Source: Halosolutus amylolyticus (GTDB taxonomy: Archaea; Halobacteriota; Halobacteria; Halobacteriales; Natrialbaceae). Taken from it: a DNA stretch of 64,000 nt. Under the pieces are notes generated by a model. It saw only the letters and a program-made list of their open reading frames with translations, did no database searches and had not been told where the DNA came from. Shown piece by piece: positions 5,583 to 41,931 of this stretch. The position numbers and the translations under genes are program-made. The first letter of the stretch is position 1. Every line of letters begins with the position of its first letter. The stretch covers positions 372,001 through 436,000 of the forward strand of contig NZ_JALIQP010000002.1 in assembly GCF_023566055.1 (NCBI RefSeq), in the 5' to 3' direction.

Positions 5583-8048
5583 ATGTCACCCGACCTGGCG
5601 ATGGTCGTCGCCGCGGTCGCGTTACCGTTCGTCGCTGCCGGACTCACACCCCTGCTTTTCCGGCTGCTCGACGAGCGAACCGGCTACGCGGGCGCTCTCG
5701 TCGCGATGACGTCGTTCGCGTTGCTCGCGTCGCAATACAGCGTGGCGACGACGAGTCCTGGGACCGTCGCCCTCGCCTGGATCCCGTCGATCGACGTCGC
5801 GCTGCGGTTCTACGTCGACGGCTGGGGGCTGCTGTTCGCCCTGCTCGCCTCCGGTATCGGGACGCTCATCTTCCTGTACTCCCCCGCGTACATGCACGGC
5901 GAGTCTCACCTCGCCAGGTTCTACGCCGCGTTGCTCGCGTTCATGGGGTCGATCATCGGCGTCGCGCTGGCGGCCGACCTGATCGCGATCTTCCTCTTCT
6001 GGGAACTCACCAGCCTCGCGTCGTTCGTCCTGATCGGCCACTACACCGACGACGACTCCTCGCAGTACGCCGCCCGGATGGCCATGCTCGTCACCGTCGG
6101 CGGCGGCCTCTTCCTGCTGGTCGGCTTCATCCTGCTCTCGATCGTCGCGGTCGACGTCCCCGCGGTCGAATCCGCCTACAACCTCGCCGCGATGCTCGAG
6201 AACCCCGACGCGATGCAGTCTGCCCTCCGCGATCGGGGGCTGTTCGTACCGGTGCTCGGACTGCTCGCGATCGGCGCGGGGTCGAAGTCCGCCCAGGTCC
6301 CGCTTCACTTCTGGCTCCCGAACGCGATGGCAGCCCCCACGCCAGTCTCTGCTTTCCTCCACTCCGCGACGATGGTGAAGGTCGGCGTCTACTTCGTCGG
6401 CCGCGTGCGCCCGATTCTCGTCGGGGAGGAGTGGCTCATCCTGTTCGCGACGCTCGGGTTGACGACGATGACCGTCTGTGCGATCCTGGCGGTCGCCGCC
6501 ACGGACATCAAGGAACTGTTGGCGTACTCGACGGCGAGCCACCTCGGACTGATGATCGCCGGCTTCGGCTTCACGTCGATCTACGGGGCCGAAACCGGCG
6601 TCTTCCACCTGCTCAACCACGCCCTGTTCAAGGCCGCGCTCTTCCTCGTCGCCGGGATCGTCGCCCACGAGGCCGGCACCCGGCGGATCGACGCCCTCGG
6701 CGGACTCCGCCACGACCTTCCGGTTACGGCGGCGATCACCACGATCGTCGCGCTCAGCATGGCCGGCATCCCCCCGTTCAACGGCTTCTACTCGAAGGAA
6801 CTGCTGTTCGAGGCGGCCGTCGAGGCGAGCCACTACCACGACATCGGCGCGCTCGGCTGGCTCTACCCCGCGGTGGCCGTCTTCGGGAGCATCTTCACCG
6901 TCCTCTACTCGCTCCGGTTCCTGGGCCTGTTCTTCGGCAGCCGTCCCGACGGCCTCGGCGACGTGCACGAACCCTCGATCATGCTCATCCTTCCGCCCGC
7001 CGTCCTGGCCGCGCTCGCCGCCGTCGTCAGCGTCGACCCCCAACTCGCGGTCCGGGTCATCGTCCAGTCCGGCGTCGACGCGACCGCGACCGACCCCGAG
7101 GCGATGCACGTCGGCCTCCCCACCTCGTACTCGACCCCCGTCGGGATGAGCGCGATCGCGATCGGGGTCGGCTTCGCCGCCTACCCGTTCTACGATCGGA
7201 TTCACGACGCGATCCGATCGGTCCCGGCCGCGTCACCTCCGGTGAGCGCGAACTGGTGGTACGACGCCGTCGTCGGGAACCTCACGGGTGTGGGCTCGTG
7301 GCTCGGTTCGCGGGTCCACAACGGGCTGCTCCGGACGTACGCGACGTGGACGCTGGCTGCCACCTCCGCGTTCGCGCTCGTCGGCTTCGCCGCCACGGTG
7401 GCCGTCGCCCCCGCCGACCTCGTGGGCGTCGACGCCACGCCGGCGATCGCGCTCGTGCTGGCGGTGGCGGTGGTGGCCGCCCTCGCAGTCGTCACGTCCG
7501 ACTCGCACGTCGCCGGCATCCTCACGCTCTCGATCCTCGGGTTCATGATCGCCATCTTCTACATCCTCGCCAGCGCGCCGGACCTCGCGCTGACGCAACT
7601 GGTCGTCGAGACGCTCCTGCTCGTGATCTTCCTGCTCGTGATCGAGGAGATTCCCGAGTACTACGAGGTCGACCTCGGCAGGGTCGCCCGCGACGCCGTC
7701 CTCTCGGTGGCCGTCGGCGCGACAGTGTTCGTCACGGTCCTGCTCACGACCGACGCCAGCCCCGAGGGGAGCACGGACGTCGCCCGCTACTACGCCGAGA
7801 ACGCGGTTCCCGAGGGCGGCGGTACGAACATCGTCAACGTGATCCTGGTCGACTTCCGCGGCTTCGACACGCTCGGCGAACTCGTGGTGGTCGCGCTGGC
7901 CGCCATCTCGATCCTGACGCTGATCGTCATGCGATCCGGCGGCGGCGACGAGACGGGGACCGACGACACGAGGGCTGACGACGTGACGGCCGACGACACG
8001 AGGGCTGACGAGACGGGGATCGACGACACAGGAGGTGCGGACCGATGA
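5583..8048 (+). CDS. mrpA: Mrp cation/proton antiporter subunit A
   Basis: An 821-residue polytopic protein of the complex-I ND5/MrpA family, the large ion-translocating subunit of the Mrp (Mnh) Na+/H+ antiporter in the cytoplasmic membrane. The family core KSAQVPLHFWLPNAMAAPTP and the HSATMVKVG stretch are present near residues 238-264. The C-terminal third holds the DUF4040/MbhE-like part typical of MrpA (ILASAPDLALTQLVVETL, then EEIPEYYE). The last 30 residues are a repetitive Asp/Thr tail (TDDTRADD...), encoded by short direct repeats at 7966-8035. TTTAAG at 5548 is a likely TATA box. First gene of a seven-gene operon; overlaps mrpB by ATGA. Confidence 0.95.
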   Translation: MSPDLAMVVAAVALPFVAAGLTPLLFRLLDERTGYAGALVAMTSFALLASQYSVATTSPGTVALAWIPSIDVALRFYVDGWGLLFALLASGIGTLIFLYSPAYMHGESHLARFYAALLAFMGSIIGVALAADLIAIFLFWELTSLASFVLIGHYTDDDSSQYAARMAMLVTVGGGLFLLVGFILLSIVAVDVPAVESAYNLAAMLENPDAMQSALRDRGLFVPVLGLLAIGAGSKSAQVPLHFWLPNAMAAPTPVSAFLHSATMVKVGVYFVGRVRPILVGEEWLILFATLGLTTMTVCAILAVAATDIKELLAYSTASHLGLMIAGFGFTSIYGAETGVFHLLNHALFKAALFLVAGIVAHEAGTRRIDALGGLRHDLPVTAAITTIVALSMAGIPPFNGFYSKELLFEAAVEASHYHDIGALGWLYPAVAVFGSIFTVLYSLRFLGLFFGSRPDGLGDVHEPSIMLILPPAVLAALAAVVSVDPQLAVRVIVQSGVDATATDPEAMHVGLPTSYSTPVGMSAIAIGVGFAAYPFYDRIHDAIRSVPAASPPVSANWWYDAVVGNLTGVGSWLGSRVHNGLLRTYATWTLAATSAFALVGFAATVAVAPADLVGVDATPAIALVLAVAVVAALAVVTSDSHVAGILTLSILGFMIAIFYILASAPDLALTQLVVETLLLVIFLLVIEEIPEYYEVDLGRVARDAVLSVAVGATVFVTVLLTTDASPEGSTDVARYYAENAVPEGGGTNIVNVILVDFRGFDTLGELVVVALAAISILTLIVMRSGGGDETGTDDTRADDVTADDTRADETGIDDTGGADR

Positions 8049-33206: not shown

Positions 33207-33689
33207 TCAGGAAAACAGCCGCTTGAGGCGCGCGAACAGTCCGCTCGATCGATCCTCGCCACGGCGTGAGGTGGCAGACAGGCCAACCGGATCGGCGGCA
33301 GGCCTGCCATCGGAAGCAGTATCCGAGTCGCTATCGTCGGTCGCTTCGGTCGACTCCGCGTCGTCGGTCGCCGCGGTCGCGTGACTGTCGGCTTCCGCGA
33401 TCGCCCGTTCGAGAAGCCCCTCGGCGTCGGCGATAGCGTCTTTCACCGACCCCTCGACGAGCGGTTTTCCCTCGAAGCGGTCGCGCGTGATCGACGTGTC
33501 GGTGGCGACGATGACGGCGTCGGCCGCCGCGATCGCCTCGCTCGAGAGTTCGTTCTCCTGGCCCATGGCCCCCTGCACCTCGACGTCGATCGCGTGATCG
33601 TTCGCCGCCGCGACCTGCTCCAGGTTCTCGGCTGCCATCTGACAGTGCGCGATCCCGGTCGGACAGGACGTAACTGCGACGAACTTCAT
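33207..33689 (-). CDS. ptfB: PTS fructose-type EIIB component
   Basis: A 160-residue EIIB-Fru protein. The phosphorylated Cys9 is in VTSCPTGIAHCQMAAE, the family signature. The EIIB fold takes the first 105 residues; the rest is a disordered Ser/Asp/Thr-rich tail ending in a basic LFARLKRLFS, longer than usual. It is the last gene of a minus-strand fructose PTS block and lies next to the slot where ptsI is expected. Confidence 0.92.
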   Translation of the reverse strand: MKFVAVTSCPTGIAHCQMAAENLEQVAAANDHAIDVEVQGAMGQENELSSEAIAAADAVIVATDTSITRDRFEGKPLVEGSVKDAIADAEGLLERAIAEADSHATAATDDAESTEATDDSDSDTASDGRPAADPVGLSATSRRGEDRSSGLFARLKRLFS

Positions 33690-33692
33690 GTG

Positions 33693-33777
33693 TTACCGCT
33701 CCGCTACGTACTCACGAACCGTAGTCTTCGTGGTCGTCTCGATCGCCCGGTTCGCGTGCTCGTCTCCGGACGCGGCC
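33693..33777 (-). other. slot where ptsI (enzyme I) is expected but absent
   Basis: Only 88 bases separate ptsH and ptfB. In the Haloferax volcanii cluster, as I recall it, ptsI lies exactly here. One frame reads ...DEHANRAIETTTKTTVREYV and a few more residues before a TAA 3 bases from the ptfB start; it could be the remaining C-terminus of a deleted ptsI or a chance frame. Confidence 0.35.
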
Positions 33778-34050
33778 TCAAGTTTCGGATTCCGCTTCGG
33801 GGGACGAGAGGACCGCCTCGAGCGCGTCGAGCGCCGCCTCGGCGTCGTCTCCTTCGGCGACGATTCGAACGTCGGCCCCGCTCGCGACGCCGAGACTCGT
33901 GACGGCGAGCACGCTCGCCGCGTTCACCGGGTCGCCGTCGACGGGCGCGACCTGCACGTCCGCGTCGAACCGGGTCGCGGTCTCGACGAACGTCGCCGCC
34001 GGGCGCGCGTGGAGTCCGTCCGCCGGGACGACGGTGACGATTCGCTCCAT
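33778..34050 (-). CDS. ptsH1: PTS phosphocarrier HPr
   Basis: A 90-residue HPr protein. The phosphorylated His14 is in GLHARPAATFVETA; the regulatory Ser region reads ASVLAVTSLGVASGADV. It passes phosphate from enzyme I to EIIA. The ATG overlaps the EIIA stop (TGATG), so translation is coupled. The acidic C-terminus is a halophile feature. Confidence 0.94.
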   Translation of the reverse strand: MERIVTVVPADGLHARPAATFVETATRFDADVQVAPVDGDPVNAASVLAVTSLGVASGADVRIVAEGDDAEAALDALEAVLSSPEAESET

Positions 34051-34508
34051 CACGCGACCGCCTCCACGAGGGTGGCCCGGACCTCCGCGGGGGACGCCGC
34101 GTCGTGCAGACCCGCGCGCACGTCGTCGTGCATGAGCGCACGCGAGAGCGAACTGAGTATCGAGAGGTGGGCCTCGGTGCTGTCGGACGGGACGAGCAAC
34201 AGGAACAGCAGCGTCGCCGGCGCTCCGTCCATCGTGTCGATGTCGATGCCCTCGTCTGAGCGGGCGAACACGATGGTCGGCTGGACGACGGCGTCGGTCT
34301 TTGCGTGGAACAGGCCGATTCCCTTCCCGATCCCGGCCGCCGTCTCCGCTTCCCGCGCGAGCAGGGCCTCGAGCGCGGCGCTCCGGTCCGCGACCCGATC
34401 GGCCTCGACGGCGCGATCGAGGAGGTACTCGATGCACGCGTCCTTGCTCGTCGGCGGTTCCTGGAGCGTGAGTAGCTCCGGCGCGAGTACGGCGTCGATG
34501 TCGTCCAT
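34050..34508 (-). CDS. ptfA: PTS fructose-type EIIA component
   Basis: A 152-residue EIIA-Fru/Mtl domain. The active His68 lies in GIGLFHAKTDAV, where bacterial proteins have xxxPHA. The downstream DGAPATLLFLLLVPSDSTEAH is typical. It takes phosphate from HPr and gives it to Cys9 of EIIB. It lies 29 bases after ptfC and overlaps ptsH. Confidence 0.93.
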   Translation of the reverse strand: MDDIDAVLAPELLTLQEPPTSKDACIEYLLDRAVEADRVADRSAALEALLAREAETAAGIGKGIGLFHAKTDAVVQPTIVFARSDEGIDIDTMDGAPATLLFLLLVPSDSTEAHLSILSSLSRALMHDDVRAGLHDAASPAEVRATLVEAVA

Positions 34509-34537
34509 GGGCGTAGTATACTGGTACTGTGGTTTAG

Positions 34538-35665
34538 TTAGTCGCTCTTCCGGACCGCCTCGATCGCGGCCGCGTTTTCCTCGTACTCGGGTTTGACGAC
34601 CGTCACTATCGCGGCCGTGACGGCCGTCCCGAGGGCGAGACACGCCAGGAACAGGAGCCAGCTGTTCGCGAGGAAGACGACGAGGATGCCGCCGTGGGGC
34701 GCGGGCATCGTGACCCCGAGCCACATCGCAGTGGCGGCCGCGGTCGCGCTCCCCATCACGATGCTCGGAACGACCCGTCCCGGATCGGCCGTTGCGTAGG
34801 GGAGCACGCCCTCGGTGACGAACGACAGTCCCATCGGCACGGCGGCCCTGGCGGTTTCGTAGCGCTCCTCGGGGTACTTGTGCGGAGCGACGACGGTCGA
34901 CAGTGCGAGTCCGAGCGGTGGCACCATCCCGGCGATCATCACCGCTGCCATCGGCCCGTAGATCTGCTCGGTGATCAGCGTCACGGCGAATACGTACGCG
35001 ACCTTGTTGACGGGACCGCCACTATCGATCGCGATCATCGCGCCAAGGATGCCCCCGTACGCGAGCGCCTCCAGACCGGCCGCGTCCCGGGAGAGGGCGG
35101 TGAGCCACTCGGTCGCGAGTGCGAGCGGTGGCGCGAGCAGAAAGATGACGACGGGAGCGAGCAGCCCGGTTACGAGGACCGGAAGCAAGAGCACGGGTAC
35201 GAGCGGTTCGACGGTGTCCGGCACGTCGACACGAGCGAAACGGTCGACGAGCGCCCCCGCAAGCAGGCCAACGCCGAGCGCGCCGAGAAAGCCGACCCCC
35301 GTCCCGCCGGTCTCGATGCCGACGATCCGTCCCGCTTGCTCGACGACCGCACCCTCCTGGACGATCGCGGTGAGGACGAACCCCGGCGCGAGACCGGGTC
35401 GATCGGCGATTCCGTAGGCGACGTACGCGCCGAACACGGGAACCACGAGCGCGAGACCCGCGCGGCCGATTTCGGCGAGGAACCACGCGAGAGTACCCGG
35501 CTGCTCGAGCGCACCGTCCCCGCCGACGACGCGGGCGACGGCGAGGAAGACGCCGCCGATAGTGACGAAGGGAATCATGAAGCTCACCCCGGTCATGAGA
35601 TCCCTCCGCACCGACCTGAGGTGGGTGGAGATCGCAGTCGTAACGGACGTGGGCTTCTCTGTCAC
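34538..35665 (-). CDS. ptfC: PTS fructose-type EIIC permease
   Basis: A 375-residue membrane permease of the fructose EIIC family, with about nine or ten spans. GVSFMIPFVTIGGVFLAV at the N-terminus, IAIDSGGPVNKVAYVFAV and FVTEGVLPYATADPGRVVPS are family signatures; the last includes the sugar-phosphorylation Glu. It transports and, with EIIB, phosphorylates fructose to fructose 1-phosphate, the substrate of the adjacent PfkB. Three bases separate it from pfkB. Confidence 0.93.
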   Translation of the reverse strand: MTEKPTSVTTAISTHLRSVRRDLMTGVSFMIPFVTIGGVFLAVARVVGGDGALEQPGTLAWFLAEIGRAGLALVVPVFGAYVAYGIADRPGLAPGFVLTAIVQEGAVVEQAGRIVGIETGGTGVGFLGALGVGLLAGALVDRFARVDVPDTVEPLVPVLLLPVLVTGLLAPVVIFLLAPPLALATEWLTALSRDAAGLEALAYGGILGAMIAIDSGGPVNKVAYVFAVTLITEQIYGPMAAVMIAGMVPPLGLALSTVVAPHKYPEERYETARAAVPMGLSFVTEGVLPYATADPGRVVPSIVMGSATAAATAMWLGVTMPAPHGGILVVFLANSWLLFLACLALGTAVTAAIVTVVKPEYEENAAAIEAVRKSD

Positions 35666-35668
35666 GGG

Positions 35669-36577
35669 TCACCTCGTGAAGAGGGGAACGTCGGTCGACT
35701 CCGAACGGACGCCGGACATCTCGGGAACGGTCGTTCCCGGAACCGAAACGACCTCGGCGGCGACGGTCACGCCCATGCGAAGGGCGGCGGTTCCGGACTG
35801 GCCGCGCGCGAACGTCGAGAGGACGCCCGCGAGTAGCGCGTCGCCCGCGCCGACGGTGTCGACGACCTCGACGTTCCGGGAGTCCGCCCGGTAGACGCCC
35901 TCCGGTGAGGCCAGCAACGCGCCATCCTCGCCAAGCGACGCGACGACGTGTTCGAACCCCTCCTCGCGGAGCGACTGGGCCGCCTCTACGCACTCCTCGA
36001 CGGAGTGAACCGGCATTCCCGTCGCCGTCCCGAGTTCGCGACGGTTGGGCTTGCACGCGAAGTACTCGCTTCGAAGTCCCTTCAGCAGATCCCCCTGAAC
36101 GTCCACGACGGTCCGCCACGAACCGGCGCTGGCGATGCGATCGATCGTCGCCGGACCCAGGTTCGGCGGGAGGCTTCCCGCGACGACGACCATCTCGGGG
36201 TCGTGCTCGCTGACCTTCGCGACGACCTCCCGAATGGTCTCCTTCTTGACGTTGTGGCCCGACTGGTTGATCTTGTACTCCTCCTCGTCGCTGAGGATCG
36301 TCGTGTTGAGGCGCGTACACCCGCCCATCTCGACGAAGTCGTTCGGGATCTTCTGGCGGGCGAGTTGCTCCTCGATGTACGACCCCAGGAAGCCGCCGGT
36401 GAGACCGGTCGCCACCGTCTCGACGCCGAGGCCGTGGAGGTACTTCGAGACGTTGATCCCCTTGCCGCCGGGGTCGTACTGGGACATGCTCGCCCGCTTG
36501 ACCACGTCGGCATCGAGGTCCCCCTCGACGGTGATCGTGTGATCGACGGCGGGATTGAGGGTGACGGTCAGGATCAC
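35669..36577 (-). CDS. pfkB: 1-phosphofructokinase PfkB
   Basis: A 302-residue ribokinase-family sugar kinase of the FruK type. NPAVDHTITVEGDLD and YDPGGKGINVSKYLHGLG start the protein; the C-terminal DTVGAGDALLAGVLSTFARG has the catalytic Asp and anion hole. It turns fructose 1-phosphate into fructose 1,6-bisphosphate. It overlaps glpR by ATGA, so regulator and kinase are co-translated. Confidence 0.94.
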   Translation of the reverse strand: MILTVTLNPAVDHTITVEGDLDADVVKRASMSQYDPGGKGINVSKYLHGLGVETVATGLTGGFLGSYIEEQLARQKIPNDFVEMGGCTRLNTTILSDEEEYKINQSGHNVKKETIREVVAKVSEHDPEMVVVAGSLPPNLGPATIDRIASAGSWRTVVDVQGDLLKGLRSEYFACKPNRRELGTATGMPVHSVEECVEAAQSLREEGFEHVVASLGEDGALLASPEGVYRADSRNVEVVDTVGAGDALLAGVLSTFARGQSGTAALRMGVTVAAEVVSVPGTTVPEMSGVRSESTDVPLFTR

Positions 36578-37335
36578 CGGACCACCCCGTCGACGACGTC
36601 GACGCCGGCCGCCTCGAACGGTTCGCGCTGCTCGTCGGGTAGCGTCGCGTCGGTCACGAACACGTCGATGTCCGCGAGGTCGGCGAAGTGGACGAAACTC
36701 CGCCGGCCGAGTTTGGAGCCGTCCGAGACGAGGACGACTCGCTGAGATTTCTCCACCATCAGCGACTTCATCCGCGCTTCGTCCTCGTTCGGCGTCGTCA
36801 GGCCCGCATCGGGGTGGATGGCGTTCGTCCCGAGGAAGACGGTGTCGAAGTTCGTCCGCTCGAGGAACTGCTCGCCGGTGGGCCCCACCAGCGCCCAGGT
36901 CTGTTCGCGAAGCGTTCCGCCGGTCAGCTTCACGTCGCCGCGTTCGCCCAGTTCCATCGCGATCAGTGGGGAGTTCGTCGCCGCGATGAACTCGACGTCA
37001 GGGGCGGCCTTCGCGACCTCGATGGTCGTCGTGCCGGAGTCGAAGAAGACGACCTGTCCCGCGTGGATTTCCCCGGCCGCGCGGTCGCCGATGGCGCGTT
37101 TCGCCTCGAGGTTCTGGACCTGTTTCTGGCTGTACGTTCGTTCCTCGGCGACGCTCGACGTCGGGAGCGCACCGCCGTGAGAGCGCTCGATCAGTCCGTC
37201 CGACTCGAGATCCTGCAGATCGCGGCGGATCGTCGCCTCGGAGACGCCGAGTTCCTCGGCGAGTTCGGTGACGGTCCGTCCGTTCTCTGCCGAGACGACC
37301 TCGACGATCTCGCGTTTCCGTTGTTTGGGTAGCAT
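36574..37335 (-). CDS. glpR: DeoR-type repressor GlpR
   Basis: A 253-residue DeoR/GlpR regulator. The HTH is at residues 5-57 (VTELAEELGVSEATIRRDLQ), and the sugar-phosphate-binding domain carries FFDSGTTTIEVAK and ATNSPLIAMEL. In Haloferax volcanii the orthologue represses pfkB and kdgK during growth on glycerol. Here it heads the pfkB-PTS cluster and lies 53 bases downstream of a sugar ABC operon in the same direction, so it may also control that. Confidence 0.93.
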   Translation of the reverse strand: MLPKQRKREIVEVVSAENGRTVTELAEELGVSEATIRRDLQDLESDGLIERSHGGALPTSSVAEERTYSQKQVQNLEAKRAIGDRAAGEIHAGQVVFFDSGTTTIEVAKAAPDVEFIAATNSPLIAMELGERGDVKLTGGTLREQTWALVGPTGEQFLERTNFDTVFLGTNAIHPDAGLTTPNEDEARMKSLMVEKSQRVVLVSDGSKLGRRSFVHFADLADIDVFVTDATLPDEQREPFEAAGVDVVDGVVR

Positions 37336-37388: not shown

Positions 37389-37589
37389 TTATGTGTTCTT
37401 GAACGTTTCTGACCGACTCTGCCTGCTGGAGAGGACGGTGAGAGCGAACGTGACGATCGCGCCGACGCCGGCGACGATCGCACCGCCGTAGATCCCCTGC
37501 AGGTAGTTGTACGTCGCGATCAGGACGAGCGCGACACCGAGGGCCAGCGGGGCGAACTCCGCGAGCGTCTCCGTGTCGATCGCCGTCAC
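37389..37589 (-). CDS. small membrane protein of the sugar ABC operon
   Basis: A 66-residue protein with two hydrophobic spans (about 12-30 and 34-53) and a short polar C-terminus. It overlaps the ABC ATPase stop by four bases and is the last gene of the operon. I know no named family; it may help the permease pair or be unrelated to transport. Confidence 0.7.
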   Translation of the reverse strand: MTAIDTETLAEFAPLALGVALVLIATYNYLQGIYGGAIVAGVGAIVTFALTVLSSRQSRSETFKNT

Positions 37590-38713
37590 GCGAGTTGTTC
37601 TCCGCTTTCCGCCTCGGTCTCGTGCTCGCGATCGAACGTGAGCGACTCGCCGGACTCGGAGTCGAAATAGTGGAGCGAGCGGCGATCGAACTCGACGCTG
37701 ACGCGGTCGTCGACCTCGACCGGTCCCCCCGGTTCGATCGACGCCTTCATCGTCGTCCCGTTGCCCAGGCCGAGTTCGAGCACGGTCTTTTCGCCCTGCG
37801 GTTCGACGACGTTGACCGTCGCCGGCAGTCCGTCCGGCCGCAGGGTTACGTCCTCGGGGCGGACCCCGAGGACGACGTCGTCGCCGATCGAGTCCTCGAG
37901 CGCCCAGTGGTACTCGTCGGGCACCTCGTGCTGGAACGAGTCGAGGTCGACGGCGAGGCCGTCCTCGTGGCGGCGAACCGTTCCCTCGAGGAAGTTCATG
38001 CTCGGCGACCCCAGGAAGTCCGCGACGAACAGGTTCCGCGGGTTGGAATAGACGAACGTCGGCGGACCGACCTGCTGGATCTGGCCGTCGTTCATGACGG
38101 CGATCTGGTCGCCCAGCGTCATCGCCTCGACCTGGTCGTGGGTGACGTACACCGTCGTCGTCGAGAGTTTGTCGTGGAGTTTGTTCAACTCGGCGCGCAT
38201 CTGGACGCGGAGCTTCGCGTCGAGGTTGGACAGCGGTTCGTCCATCAGGAAGACGTCCGGTTTGCGGACGATCGCGCGCCCGAGCGCGACCCGCTGTTGC
38301 TGCCCGCCGGAGAGTTCGGCCGGCTTCCGATCCAGCAGGTCGTCGATCTGGAGCAAGTTCGCGGCCTCCGCGACGCGCTCCTGGATCGTCTCCTCGTCGA
38401 CGCCCTGCTGTTCCAGCCCGAAGCGCATGTTCCCGCGGACCGTCTTGTGCGGGTAGAGCGCGTAGTTCTGGAACACCATGGCGATGTCGCGCTCGTACGC
38501 GCGTCGGTCGTTGACGACCTCGTCGCCGATCTCGATCGTCCCGCCGCTCGCACGCTCCAGGCCGGCGACCAGCCGCAGCGTCGTCGTCTTGCCACAGCCC
38601 GACGGGCCCACCAGCACGGTAAAACTCTCGTCGGGAATCTCGAGCGAGACGCCGTCGACGGCGACGATGTCGTCGAACCGCTTTACCAGATCGTCGAGAC
38701 GTACTTCAGCCAT
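37586..38713 (-). CDS. sugar ABC transporter ATPase, MalK/UgpC type
   Basis: A 375-residue ABC ATPase. Walker A is GPSGCGKTT (36-44), signature LSGGQQQRVALGRA, Walker B VFLMDEPLSNLDAKLR, H-loop VYVTHDQVEAM. The C-terminal third is an OB-fold regulatory domain (TOBE/MalK type, GVRPEDVTLRPDG). It energises uptake through the two permeases encoded before it. Length matches MalK/UgpC/MsmK proteins. Confidence 0.94.
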   Translation of the reverse strand: MAEVRLDDLVKRFDDIVAVDGVSLEIPDESFTVLVGPSGCGKTTTLRLVAGLERASGGTIEIGDEVVNDRRAYERDIAMVFQNYALYPHKTVRGNMRFGLEQQGVDEETIQERVAEAANLLQIDDLLDRKPAELSGGQQQRVALGRAIVRKPDVFLMDEPLSNLDAKLRVQMRAELNKLHDKLSTTTVYVTHDQVEAMTLGDQIAVMNDGQIQQVGPPTFVYSNPRNLFVADFLGSPSMNFLEGTVRRHEDGLAVDLDSFQHEVPDEYHWALEDSIGDDVVLGVRPEDVTLRPDGLPATVNVVEPQGEKTVLELGLGNGTTMKASIEPGGPVEVDDRVSVEFDRRSLHYFDSESGESLTFDREHETEAESGEQLA

Positions 38714-38761
38714 CTATACCACCGCCCGTAGTCGTGTGTCGTAGGTGCATTGATTTCGAAC

Positions 38762-39682
38762 TCATTCTTTCACCGCGCCCTGCGTCAGGCCGCTCACGAT
38801 GTACCGCTGGAAGAACAACCCGAACAGGATGCCGGGTAGCGCGGCGATCATGCCGCCAGCGGCGAGGTGTGACCAGTCGACGAAGTCGTCGGCGACGAAC
38901 AGGGAGACGGCGATCGGTAACGTCTGGGAGGCTTCGCTCCGGGTGAGCACCAGTGCGAAGATGAACTCGTTCCACGAGAAGATGAACGCGAGGATCGCCG
39001 TGGCGGCGATCCCGGGTTTGGCAACTGGGAGGATGATTTTCACGAACGCCTCCCAGGTGGAACAGCCGTCGACCTTCGCCTGTTCGTCGAGCGACGTCGG
39101 CACCCCGTCGAAGTAGTTCTTCATGATCCAGACCGCGAACGGCAGGTTGAAGAACGTGTACGTCAGGATGAGCGCCACTCGCGTGTCGGTCAAGTTGCCC
39201 GTCAGCCCGCCGATCAGCGGCGGACTCGACATGATCTGGAAGAACGGCACGATCAGCGCGATCGGCGGAATCATCCGCGCCGCGACGATCGAGAGCAACA
39301 GCGCCTTGTTCCCGAGGAAATCGTGTCGCGAGAACGTGTACCCGGTCATCGTGCCCAGCGTGACGCAGATGACGGTCGTGGTCGTCGCGACGATCAGGCT
39401 GTTGATCGTGTACGCCTCGAACGGCCGATTCCGGAAGATGTCGACGTAGTTCTGTGCCGTCGGCTCCTGCGGGAAGAACGTGATCGGGAGCGTGAGAACC
39501 TCGCTCTGGGTCTTCAGGCTGGTGATGAAGATGTAGTATATCGGGAACCAGATGACGACCACGTACAGGAGCAACAACCCGTACGCGAGCAGGCGTTCCC
39601 TGACGACGCTCGGCCACACGTCGTCCGTGTTGAGACCGAGGCGCGTAGCGACTCGACTGAAGTTTGAATCTTTCGTGCTCAT
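38762..39682 (-). CDS. sugar ABC permease, MalG/UgpE type
   Basis: A 306-residue permease with six spans. The cytoplasmic EAA loop is DEQAKVDGCSTWEAFVKIIL, contacting the ATPase. The N-terminal 35 residues are a hydrophilic extension. Its ATG overlaps the stop of the first permease by four bases; 48 bases separate it from the ATPase gene. Confidence 0.92.
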   Translation of the reverse strand: MSTKDSNFSRVATRLGLNTDDVWPSVVRERLLAYGLLLLYVVVIWFPIYYIFITSLKTQSEVLTLPITFFPQEPTAQNYVDIFRNRPFEAYTINSLIVATTTTVICVTLGTMTGYTFSRHDFLGNKALLLSIVAARMIPPIALIVPFFQIMSSPPLIGGLTGNLTDTRVALILTYTFFNLPFAVWIMKNYFDGVPTSLDEQAKVDGCSTWEAFVKIILPVAKPGIAATAILAFIFSWNEFIFALVLTRSEASQTLPIAVSLFVADDFVDWSHLAAGGMIAALPGILFGLFFQRYIVSGLTQGAVKE

Positions 39683-40608
39683 GAATCGTAGGGTGTCCCT
39701 CCGAAGACCGAGTAGAGGATCGCCACGATGGCGAACGTGACCGCCAGCATGATGACGCCCAGCGCGGCTCCCTCACCGGTTCGCTGGAACTCCATCGACG
39801 TGCGGTAGAGCCAGGAGGCCCACACCTCGGTGGACTTCCCGGGGCCGCCCTTCGTCATCACCCAGACCAGATCGAGCGCCCTGATGTCGAAGATGATGCG
39901 GATCGTCAGTGCGACCAGGATCGACGGTTTCAGGAACGGATACGTGACGTTCCGGAACCGCGACCAGCGGCTCGCGCCGTCCACTTCGGCGGCGTCGTAC
40001 AGTTGCTCAGGGACGTTCTGGAGGCCCGCGAGCAGGATGATCACGATGAACGGCGTGAACACCCAGATGTCGGCAATAATCAACGCCATCATCGCGAGCG
40101 TTCCGTCCGACAGGAACGCGATCTTCTCCGAAAGCAGGCCCGTCTGGACGAGGAGGCCGTTTATCGCGCCGTTTTTCGCCTCGAACATCCAGCGCCACAT
40201 GAGCCCGCTCATCACGTAGGGGAGGATCCACGGGACGATCACGGCCGTCCGGAACCACCCGCGTCCCTTGAGGTCCTTGTTGAGCAGGATCGCGATGCCG
40301 AGGCCGAGCAGGAACGAAAACGTGACGCTGCAGCCGACGTAGATGATGGTGTTCTTCGTGAACGCGATGAAACTCGGGTTCAACATGCCCAGCGTGCCGC
40401 TGGGGTCGAGTAGCAGTCGTTTGAAGTTCCGCAGGCCCACGAACTCCGACTCTCGGGTGAGCGGATTCTCCCAGAACAGGCTCGACCACAGGAGCTTGAG
40501 CGTCGGATAGACGATGATCGCGGCGATCCAGATCAGCGTCGGACCGACCGTCAACGGAACGAACAACCGGTCGAGCGTTCGTCGTAGCGACTTCTCTGTC
40601 GTTTCCAT
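39679..40608 (-). CDS. sugar ABC permease, MalF/UgpA type
   Basis: A 309-residue permease with six spans; the EAA loop is YDAAEVDGASRWSRFRNVTY. WIAAIIVYPTLKLLWSSLF is the first span. It pairs with the MalG-type permease to form the channel. It follows the binding protein gene by 42 bases. Confidence 0.92.
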   Translation of the reverse strand: METTEKSLRRTLDRLFVPLTVGPTLIWIAAIIVYPTLKLLWSSLFWENPLTRESEFVGLRNFKRLLLDPSGTLGMLNPSFIAFTKNTIIYVGCSVTFSFLLGLGIAILLNKDLKGRGWFRTAVIVPWILPYVMSGLMWRWMFEAKNGAINGLLVQTGLLSEKIAFLSDGTLAMMALIIADIWVFTPFIVIILLAGLQNVPEQLYDAAEVDGASRWSRFRNVTYPFLKPSILVALTIRIIFDIRALDLVWVMTKGGPGKSTEVWASWLYRTSMEFQRTGEGAALGVIMLAVTFAIVAILYSVFGGTPYDS

Positions 40609-40650
40609 GATGTTTGTGTTACTCTGGCGGGGATAGTCGTCGACTGTGCC

Positions 40651-41919
40651 TTACAGGAGGCCGATGTCCTGGTAGAGACGGGTGACGTTCGACTGGGCGT
40701 CCTCCAGCGCCGTCTGCGGGTCTTTCTCGCCGAGCAGGGCCGGCGTGATCTGCTCGTCGATGTAGTCGTCGACCTGCGGCTGCTGGATGTAGGTCTCGCT
40801 CTTCGCGTGCTCGAGGTTGTACTTCATGTCCTCGAGGAGCCAGGACGGGTACTCGTCCTGGATCTCGTCGTCATCGTAGACGTCGGGGACGACGCAGGGG
40901 TTGCCCTCGACGAGCATGTTGTTCTTACAGGACTCCCGGGTCGTCATGAACTCGGCAAACTTCCGGGCCGCGGCCTTGTTCTCCGAGAACGCCGAGATAC
41001 TGATCCCGTTGGTGTCCTGGAAGGTGGCGCGGCCACCCGGCCCCTCCGGGGGCTTCGCGCTCCCGACACGCTCCTCGCCCCACTCCTCGATCGCTCGCGA
41101 ACCCAGCGGCGTCCACGATTCGACGGTCGCGAACTCGCCAGCGATGAACGCATCGCCGACGGGTCCTTCGCCCATGCTCGAGATGCCGTCGGGGAGGATT
41201 CCCTCGTCACGGAGGTCTATGACGAACTCCATCGCCTGCTGGCCCTCGTCGCCCGCGAACACCGGTTCGTTGTCGTCGTTGAACAGCGACCCGCCAGCCT
41301 GGTAGATCAGCTGTTTGAACGTGAACACGGACTTGTCGGCCCACGTGAGCCCGAACCCGGCACGACTGCCGTCGCTCAGGTCGCCCCCCATTTCCAGCAC
41401 CTCGTCCCAGGTGTCCGGCGCGGTCTCCACGACCTCCGTGTCGTAGAGGAACGAGCCCCACTTCCCGAACTCGGGCGCCATGTACGGGTCGCCGTCGAAG
41501 GTGACGAGGTCGACGAGACTGTCCGGGAACTTGTCCATGTGTTCGTCCGAGAGGTCGATCGGTTCGAGCCAGCCGGCGTTGACGAAATCGGCGAGCCACC
41601 AGGTCGGCCCGTTGAACGCGTCGACCTTCGGGCTCTGGCTGTTGAAAATCGTCGTCAGGCTGGTTTTCAGGTTCGCCCAGGGCACCTCGTTGACGTTGAC
41701 GGTGATGCCGGTTTCCTCCTCGAACCGCTCGATGTTGGCTTCGGTCCCCTGGTCGAACTCGAGGCTCCCCGCGTTGTAGAACGTGATCTCGTCGGCCATT
41801 TCGCCGTCGTCCGTCTCCGAATCGTCCCCCAGACAACCCGTGAGGCCCACGATACTGGTGGCGCTCAGCGCACCTGTCGTCTTCATGACCGTCCGCCGTG
41901 AGTGCCGTTTGGATGGCAT
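40651..41919 (-). CDS. sugar ABC substrate-binding lipoprotein (Tat)
   Basis: A 422-residue extracellular solute-binding protein of family 1. The N-terminus has twin Arg (residues 8-9, SRRTVMK) for Tat export, and the lipobox LTGC puts the lipid-attached Cys at 29, followed by an acidic linker, as in haloarchaea. ITFYNAGSLEFDQG and GFGLTWADKSVFTFKQLIYQ fit carbohydrate binders. ATG 41919 is preferred over one at 41931: a TTTTATTA box (41947-41954, minus strand) would start the message between them. The substrate is a sugar or polyol by context, not known. Confidence 0.9.
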   Translation of the reverse strand: MPSKRHSRRTVMKTTGALSATSIVGLTGCLGDDSETDDGEMADEITFYNAGSLEFDQGTEANIERFEEETGITVNVNEVPWANLKTSLTTIFNSQSPKVDAFNGPTWWLADFVNAGWLEPIDLSDEHMDKFPDSLVDLVTFDGDPYMAPEFGKWGSFLYDTEVVETAPDTWDEVLEMGGDLSDGSRAGFGLTWADKSVFTFKQLIYQAGGSLFNDDNEPVFAGDEGQQAMEFVIDLRDEGILPDGISSMGEGPVGDAFIAGEFATVESWTPLGSRAIEEWGEERVGSAKPPEGPGGRATFQDTNGISISAFSENKAAARKFAEFMTTRESCKNNMLVEGNPCVVPDVYDDDEIQDEYPSWLLEDMKYNLEHAKSETYIQQPQVDDYIDEQITPALLGEKDPQTALEDAQSNVTRLYQDIGLL

Positions 41920-41931
41920 ACCATCACACAT

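Follow-up and report, generated by a model that had tools for sequence, protein, structure and literature searches.

Here we describe a fructose phosphotransferase system (PTS) gene cluster in the haloarchaeon Halosolutus amylolyticus (genome G000, 4.59 Mb in 9 contigs) in which ptsI, the gene for enzyme I (EI), has been reduced to a scar, together with the search for the enzyme that could stand in for it. The cluster lies in a window of 64,000 nucleotides (G000:C2:372001-436000) and reads on the minus strand as glpR, pfkB, ptfC, ptfA, ptsH, a gap of exactly 88 bases (33690-33777) and ptfB (Table 1). All six open reading frames (ORFs) from glpR to ptfB are intact and tightly packed, and family profiles match their products, as a preliminary description of the window had proposed. 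The set comprises fructose-class enzymes IIA, IIB and IIC (EIIA, EIIB and EIIC) with an adjoining HPr and a 1-phosphofructokinase. The residues that we take to be the phospho-accepting ones, Cys9 of EIIB, His14 of HPr and His68 of EIIA, are all in place, again as described. No Pfam family matched ptfC at E 0.001, despite its TIGR01427 match. What the cluster lacks is ptsI at its usual place between ptsH and ptfB, an absence that the preliminary description had already noticed.

Table 1. Genes of the fructose PTS cluster and ptsI remnants in the gap between ptsH and ptfB; positions are those of the window.
Feature	Position	Strand	Evidence
glpR, DeoR-family regulator	36574..37335	-	NF041397, 395.9 bits, over cut-off
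pfkB, haloarchaeal 1-phosphofructokinase	35669..36577	-	NF041320, 462.8 bits, over cut-off
ptfC, fructose-specific EIIC	34538..35665	-	TIGR01427, 283.5 bits
ptfA, EIIA with His68	34050..34508	-	PF00359, 103.4 bits
ptsH, HPr with His14, ATG start	33778..34050	-	PF00381, 93.8 bits
ptsI deletion scar, relic of 26 codons and stop, no start codon	33693..33773	-	First codon GCG, against ATG in G392
5' remnant of ptsI	33740..33771	-	26/32 bases shared with the start of G392 ptsI
3' remnant of ptsI	33694..33749	-	48/56 bases shared with the end of G237 ptsI
ptfB, fructose EIIB with Cys9	33207..33689	-	TIGR00829, 100.1 bits, over cut-off

The gap holds one frame, RAIETTTKTTVREYV, which ends in VAER with a TAA stop codon at 33693-33695, three bases ahead of the ATG of ptfB. 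Read on the coding strand, it runs ...NRAIETTTKTTVREYVAER, stop, three bases and then the ptfB ATG, and in a member of the same family, G237, PtsI ends in ...AERALEATTKPTVRDYVADR, stop, three bases and ATG, with the same spacer. The suggestion that this frame could be the last trace of ptsI, to be checked by aligning the gap with the C-terminus of relatives, is upheld by the alignment to the 3' end of the G237 gene, whose local score of 72 compares with a maximum of 31 among 300 dinucleotide shuffles. At the protein level, 14 of 20 residues are identical to the G237 PtsI tail, and the best match elsewhere in the bodies of 111 fructose PtsI proteins reaches 9 of 20. The strong 3' match is with G237, since the ptsI genes of G392, G395, G309, G335, G408, G350 and G315 score only 26-44, mostly near or within the shuffle range. 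The 5' part of the scar, in turn, matches the start of ptsI in the congener G392 at a level that none of 300 shuffles reached, and that of G395 in the same register (23 of 32 bases), while most of the 17 relatives tried fall within the chance level. Because the 3' and 5' parts each match the ptsI of relatives above the shuffles, the 88-base gap is, on these alignments, a deletion scar in which both ends of the gene remain, fused, with most of it gone. The idea of a last trace was thus right about the C-terminal remnant but understated, since the first codons survive too.

A second congener, G393, also has no ptsI between ptsH and ptfB, and its related, longer scar shares 51 of 62 bases with the same 3' end of G237 ptsI. 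The start codon, ATG in G392 and GCG in H. amylolyticus, is ACG there. The two scars have the loss of the start codon and the 3' remnant in common, yet they differ by 27 bases, and the simplest reading, probable though not proven, is a single deletion in an ancestor common to both genomes, followed by erosion. We make no claim of special conservation of the scar, since the 39 consecutive bases that are identical in the two genomes are unremarkable in a cluster about 88% identical, in which identical runs of up to 71 bases occur elsewhere. An error of assembly or sequencing might in principle remove a gene from a genome in 9 contigs, but G393 is a single-contig genome in the same state, which rules this out, and the collapse of an assembly would not yield a scar that has diverged and lost its start codon; we regard such an error as vanishingly improbable.

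Such an absence is rare. A search for PtfB across 392 genomes of the order gave matches in 113; without G251, whose match (E 8.5e-4) was judged too weak, 112 remain, including H. amylolyticus. In all 111 others, ptsI sequence adjoins ptfB; the loci of 109 genomes (111 loci) were inspected directly, and G311 and G314 were judged from coordinates, which place the N-terminal domain of ptsI on the strand of ptfB, 1.3 kb upstream of it. Some of these genes look damaged: ptsI is fragmentary in G157, with no other cluster gene found there, lies in more than one stretch in G175 and is cut at a contig edge in G040. Contig C2 of G378 carries two copies of the fructose cluster (L127 and L128), and ptsI of both is split into more than one matching stretch by frameshifts or sequencing errors. 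In the family, a further search detected ptfB in 34 of 125 genomes, including eight beyond those from the order sample; six of the eight have ptsI adjoining ptfB (in two stretches in G406), G393 is without it, and G396 has a solitary ptfB. The ptfB of G396 (L289), with no further gene of the fructose PTS within about 6 kb, is preceded, just before position 6225, by ...DDHVIDRIQRNTD, which resembles the PtsI tails of its genus and is apparently the mark of an independent ptsI loss that also left a tail.

The preliminary description had held that, unless ptsI lay elsewhere, the chain from phosphoenolpyruvate (PEP) was broken, and had proposed a search of the whole genome for it. That search lends no support to a broken chain, and the phosphorelay is probably intact. 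PF05524 matches once in the genome, in an EI of 580 residues (G000:C2:549694-551436) that lies 144 kb from the fructose cluster, after a second HPr gene (ptsH2, the other of the two in the genome) and facing the dihydroxyacetone (dha) genes dhaM-dhaL-dhaK. The enzyme is complete, with PF05524, PF00391 and PF02896 all over cut-off, TIGR01417 at 468.9 bits and the usual motifs; the other PF02896 matches in the genome are one protein of PEP synthase size and one relic. A possible second ptsI fragment at G000:C3:442112 was set aside, as it reads as a relic of a PEP synthase. The relic (L257:1417-1815, at about 442 kb of G000:C3) is an ORF of 132 residues in which start and end are joined and the middle is missing, beside presumed genes for FBPase and class I aldolase, and its motifs lead us to presume a PEP synthase identity.

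A complete ptsI elsewhere could mean no more than relocation, as the preliminary description had allowed: one ptsI is lost at one site and one is present at another, so the fructose gene itself might have moved to the dha locus. The trees rule this out. In phylogenies of 129 and 55 PtsI proteins, the EI beside ptsH2 and dhaMLK clusters with its dha-locus counterparts in G393 and G315, outside the fructose EIs of the family (among them those of G392, G237 and G395), and a constraint that joins it and the G393 copy to the 15 fructose EIs sampled from the family lowers the log-likelihood by 88.6 units, with a p-value of 3e-11 in the approximately unbiased (AU) test. This test used 55 of the 129 proteins and a quick tree, with the constraint group chosen after the 129-protein tree was known. 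The larger tree left out ten loci lacking a near-full-length PtsI in a single frame: L258, L281, L282 and L289, where no ptsI was found, L113 at a contig edge, and L121, L127, L128, L153 and L286, where ptsI is split between stretches or frames. Because the dha-linked EIs overall fail to form a single clade, with 4 label changes across the tree, and several branches are long, the finer placement of the H. amylolyticus enzyme is unsure. The match of the scar, moreover, is to fructose ptsI genes and not to the genome's own dha-locus copy. A move of the fructose gene is very unlikely, and, since the trees and the AU test exclude the enzyme from the fructose clade, the phylogeny identifies it as a separate, dha-linked paralogue that has survived.

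Could one EI supply two PTS branches? When searches for EI, ptfB and dhaL across the order sample are cross-tabulated, 44 genomes have ptfB only, 63 have dhaL only and 68 have both, and these 68 divide into 46 with a single EI and 22 with two or more. Judged from gene presence, the single EI would serve both branches in the 46. Among them, H. amylolyticus is the only one with its EI on the dha side, because all other ptfB genomes have ptsI sequence adjoining ptfB; it is like the other 45 in having one EI for two branches and differs from them in that theirs is encoded in the fructose cluster. The fructose HPr and dha HPr of H. amylolyticus have identical surroundings of the active histidine, GLHARPA, and by eye there is no clear sign of convergence of the former toward the latter.

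The fructose genes themselves have been maintained. Between H. amylolyticus and G393, the ratio of nonsynonymous to synonymous substitution rates (dN/dS) is 0.33 for ptfC, 0.28 for ptfA, 0.31 for ptsH and 0.32 for ptfB, all four of which are open in both genomes, and 0.09 for both pfkB and glpR, with intervals from 100 bootstrap resamples that stay below 0.65. By these ratios the fructose PTS genes are under purifying selection. The values for ptfA, ptsH and ptfB lie inside the ranges of 21 comparison pairs from five genera, all with a local ptsI, although these pairs are not independent of one another and mosaicism of the cluster can disturb the ratios.

We consider it likely that the fructose cluster lost ptsI by deletion and that fructose uptake was rewired, rather than broken, through the dha-linked EI acting in trans. 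An internal deletion of most of ptsI, about 1.6 kb judging by the size of the gene in relatives, would have occurred, probably in the ancestor of H. amylolyticus and G393, leaving a non-coding scar of the two ends. The dha-linked EI, encoded with the second HPr beside dhaKLM, would now be phosphorylated by PEP and hand the phosphate over in trans to the fructose HPr, from which it would travel to EIIA, EIIB and EIIC, yielding fructose 1-phosphate for PfkB. This reading is supported by the scar, the same state in G393, the single EI, the trees and AU test, the dN/dS of 0.28-0.33 in the transporter-side genes, the identity of GLHARPA and the 46 of 68 two-branch genomes with one EI. Some observations weigh against it. 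With an identity of only about 50% between the two HPr proteins, it is not certain that one EI recognises both; the dN/dS of ptfC lies above that of every one of the 21 comparison pairs (0.04-0.20), which fits weakened constraint; and the difference between the scars leaves their common origin unproven. The behaviour of ptfC could also mean that the fructose PTS has been dead or dying since its EI was lost, with PfkB and GlpR, at their low ratios, kept for another transporter and an ATP-dependent ketohexokinase route, as in Haloarcula hispanica. For that organism, the accessible text of PMC11519228 reports a ketohexokinase route feeding 1-phosphofructokinase, and in H. amylolyticus an operon named from its ORFs as an ABC sugar transporter adjoins glpR. 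However, the four transporter-side genes have stayed open in two genomes with ratios well below 1, the active residues are intact and the genome encodes a complete EI, and we hold a dying system to be unlikely.

The proposed rewiring to the dha-linked EI has a mirror image within the genus. G392 keeps ptsI in its fructose cluster and has a matching dha locus without ptsH2-ptsI, which aligns on both sides with that of H. amylolyticus, 8300-10483 of L002 being without a counterpart in L281. A second dha set in G392 has an HPr and no EI nearby. No remnant of ptsH2-ptsI was found in the roughly 100 bases at the dha junction of G392, so a deletion in G392 and an insertion in the line of H. amylolyticus and G393 are both possible. 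Perhaps, and we put this at even chances, a redundant pair of EIs was settled in opposite ways, with G392 keeping the fructose EI, which would drive dihydroxyacetone phosphorylation, and H. amylolyticus and G393 keeping the dihydroxyacetone EI, which would drive fructose uptake. If true, fructose uptake would thereby become linked to how the dihydroxyacetone genes are controlled.

The gene order that the preliminary description had given for Haloferax, with ptsI before ptfB and fba after it, holds in Haloferax sulfurifontis (L198), the genome examined, where ptsI overlaps ptfB by 4 bases and is followed by a gene that reads as a class II fba, an identity that we presume from its motifs rather than a profile scan. 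The fructose PTS of Haloferax volcanii is encoded by HVO_1494-1499, according to the accessible text of PMC2841640 and of PMC11519228, which cites Pickl et al. 2012 for it. As far as these texts describe it, that system is like the one in H. amylolyticus in its components and their order, glpR/pfkB-ptfC-ptfA-ptsH-(ptsI)-ptfB, and its product has been shown to be fructose 1-phosphate, whereas product and transport in H. amylolyticus are predicted; H. amylolyticus differs in the deletion of ptsI and in having no class II fba following. An EI with a second HPr beside dhaMLK is likewise familiar from haloarchaeal dihydroxyacetone PTS loci (dhaKLM with ptsH and, in some genomes, ptsI), as in G315 and several other genera, but here a genome that also encodes a fructose PTS has no EI besides the dha-side one. 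In a literature search whose reach did not extend to most subscription papers, we found no case of a fructose cluster that has lost its EI and is served by one from a dha locus, and such a swap is not mentioned in the accessible text of PMC3102087, PMC3863723, PMC2841640, PMC2405797 and PMC11519228.

Judged by its readable scar, the gene deletion in H. amylolyticus is real and well resolved, and what it most likely brought about is that a known pathway now draws its phosphate from a different donor. For archaeal PTS branches, the choice between mutual insulation and a single shared phosphate-entry enzyme has so far been inferred mostly from gene presence. If our reading is true, the genus offers a natural exchange in which the same two branches rely on the fructose EI in one species and on the dihydroxyacetone EI in two others, so that ordinary mutants would be enough to test cross-recognition between archaeal EIs and HPrs directly. 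A caution follows as well, as an operon that lacks a general PTS protein is not necessarily broken.

The missing fba, by contrast with ptsI, is not part of this story. The class II aldolase family PF01116 was found in none of four genomes searched (H. amylolyticus, G393, G392 and G237), and since G392 and G237 lack it and yet keep the fructose ptsI, its absence follows lineage and not the loss of ptsI; the preliminary description was correct about the absence. A DhnA-type aldolase whose neighbour is a presumed FBPase gene (L302, L257) is a candidate class I aldolase, although it falls under every curated cut-off listed, and a gene in L301, also considered as a class I aldolase, was rejected as an ADTH synthase. 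According to the accessible text of PMC11519228, a class I aldolase can stand in for the class II enzyme of Haloferax volcanii.

The cluster is also a mosaic. Its glpR, pfkB and ptfC are 74-90% identical to those of G237 and G395 and 56-65% identical to those of the congener G392, whereas its ptsH is 84% identical to that of G392, which makes it likely that the cluster recombined between ptfC and ptsH. The sugar ABC transporter operon, immediately upstream of glpR and on its strand, occupies 37586-41931 of the window and, as named from its ORFs only, encodes an ATPase, two permeases and a binding protein.

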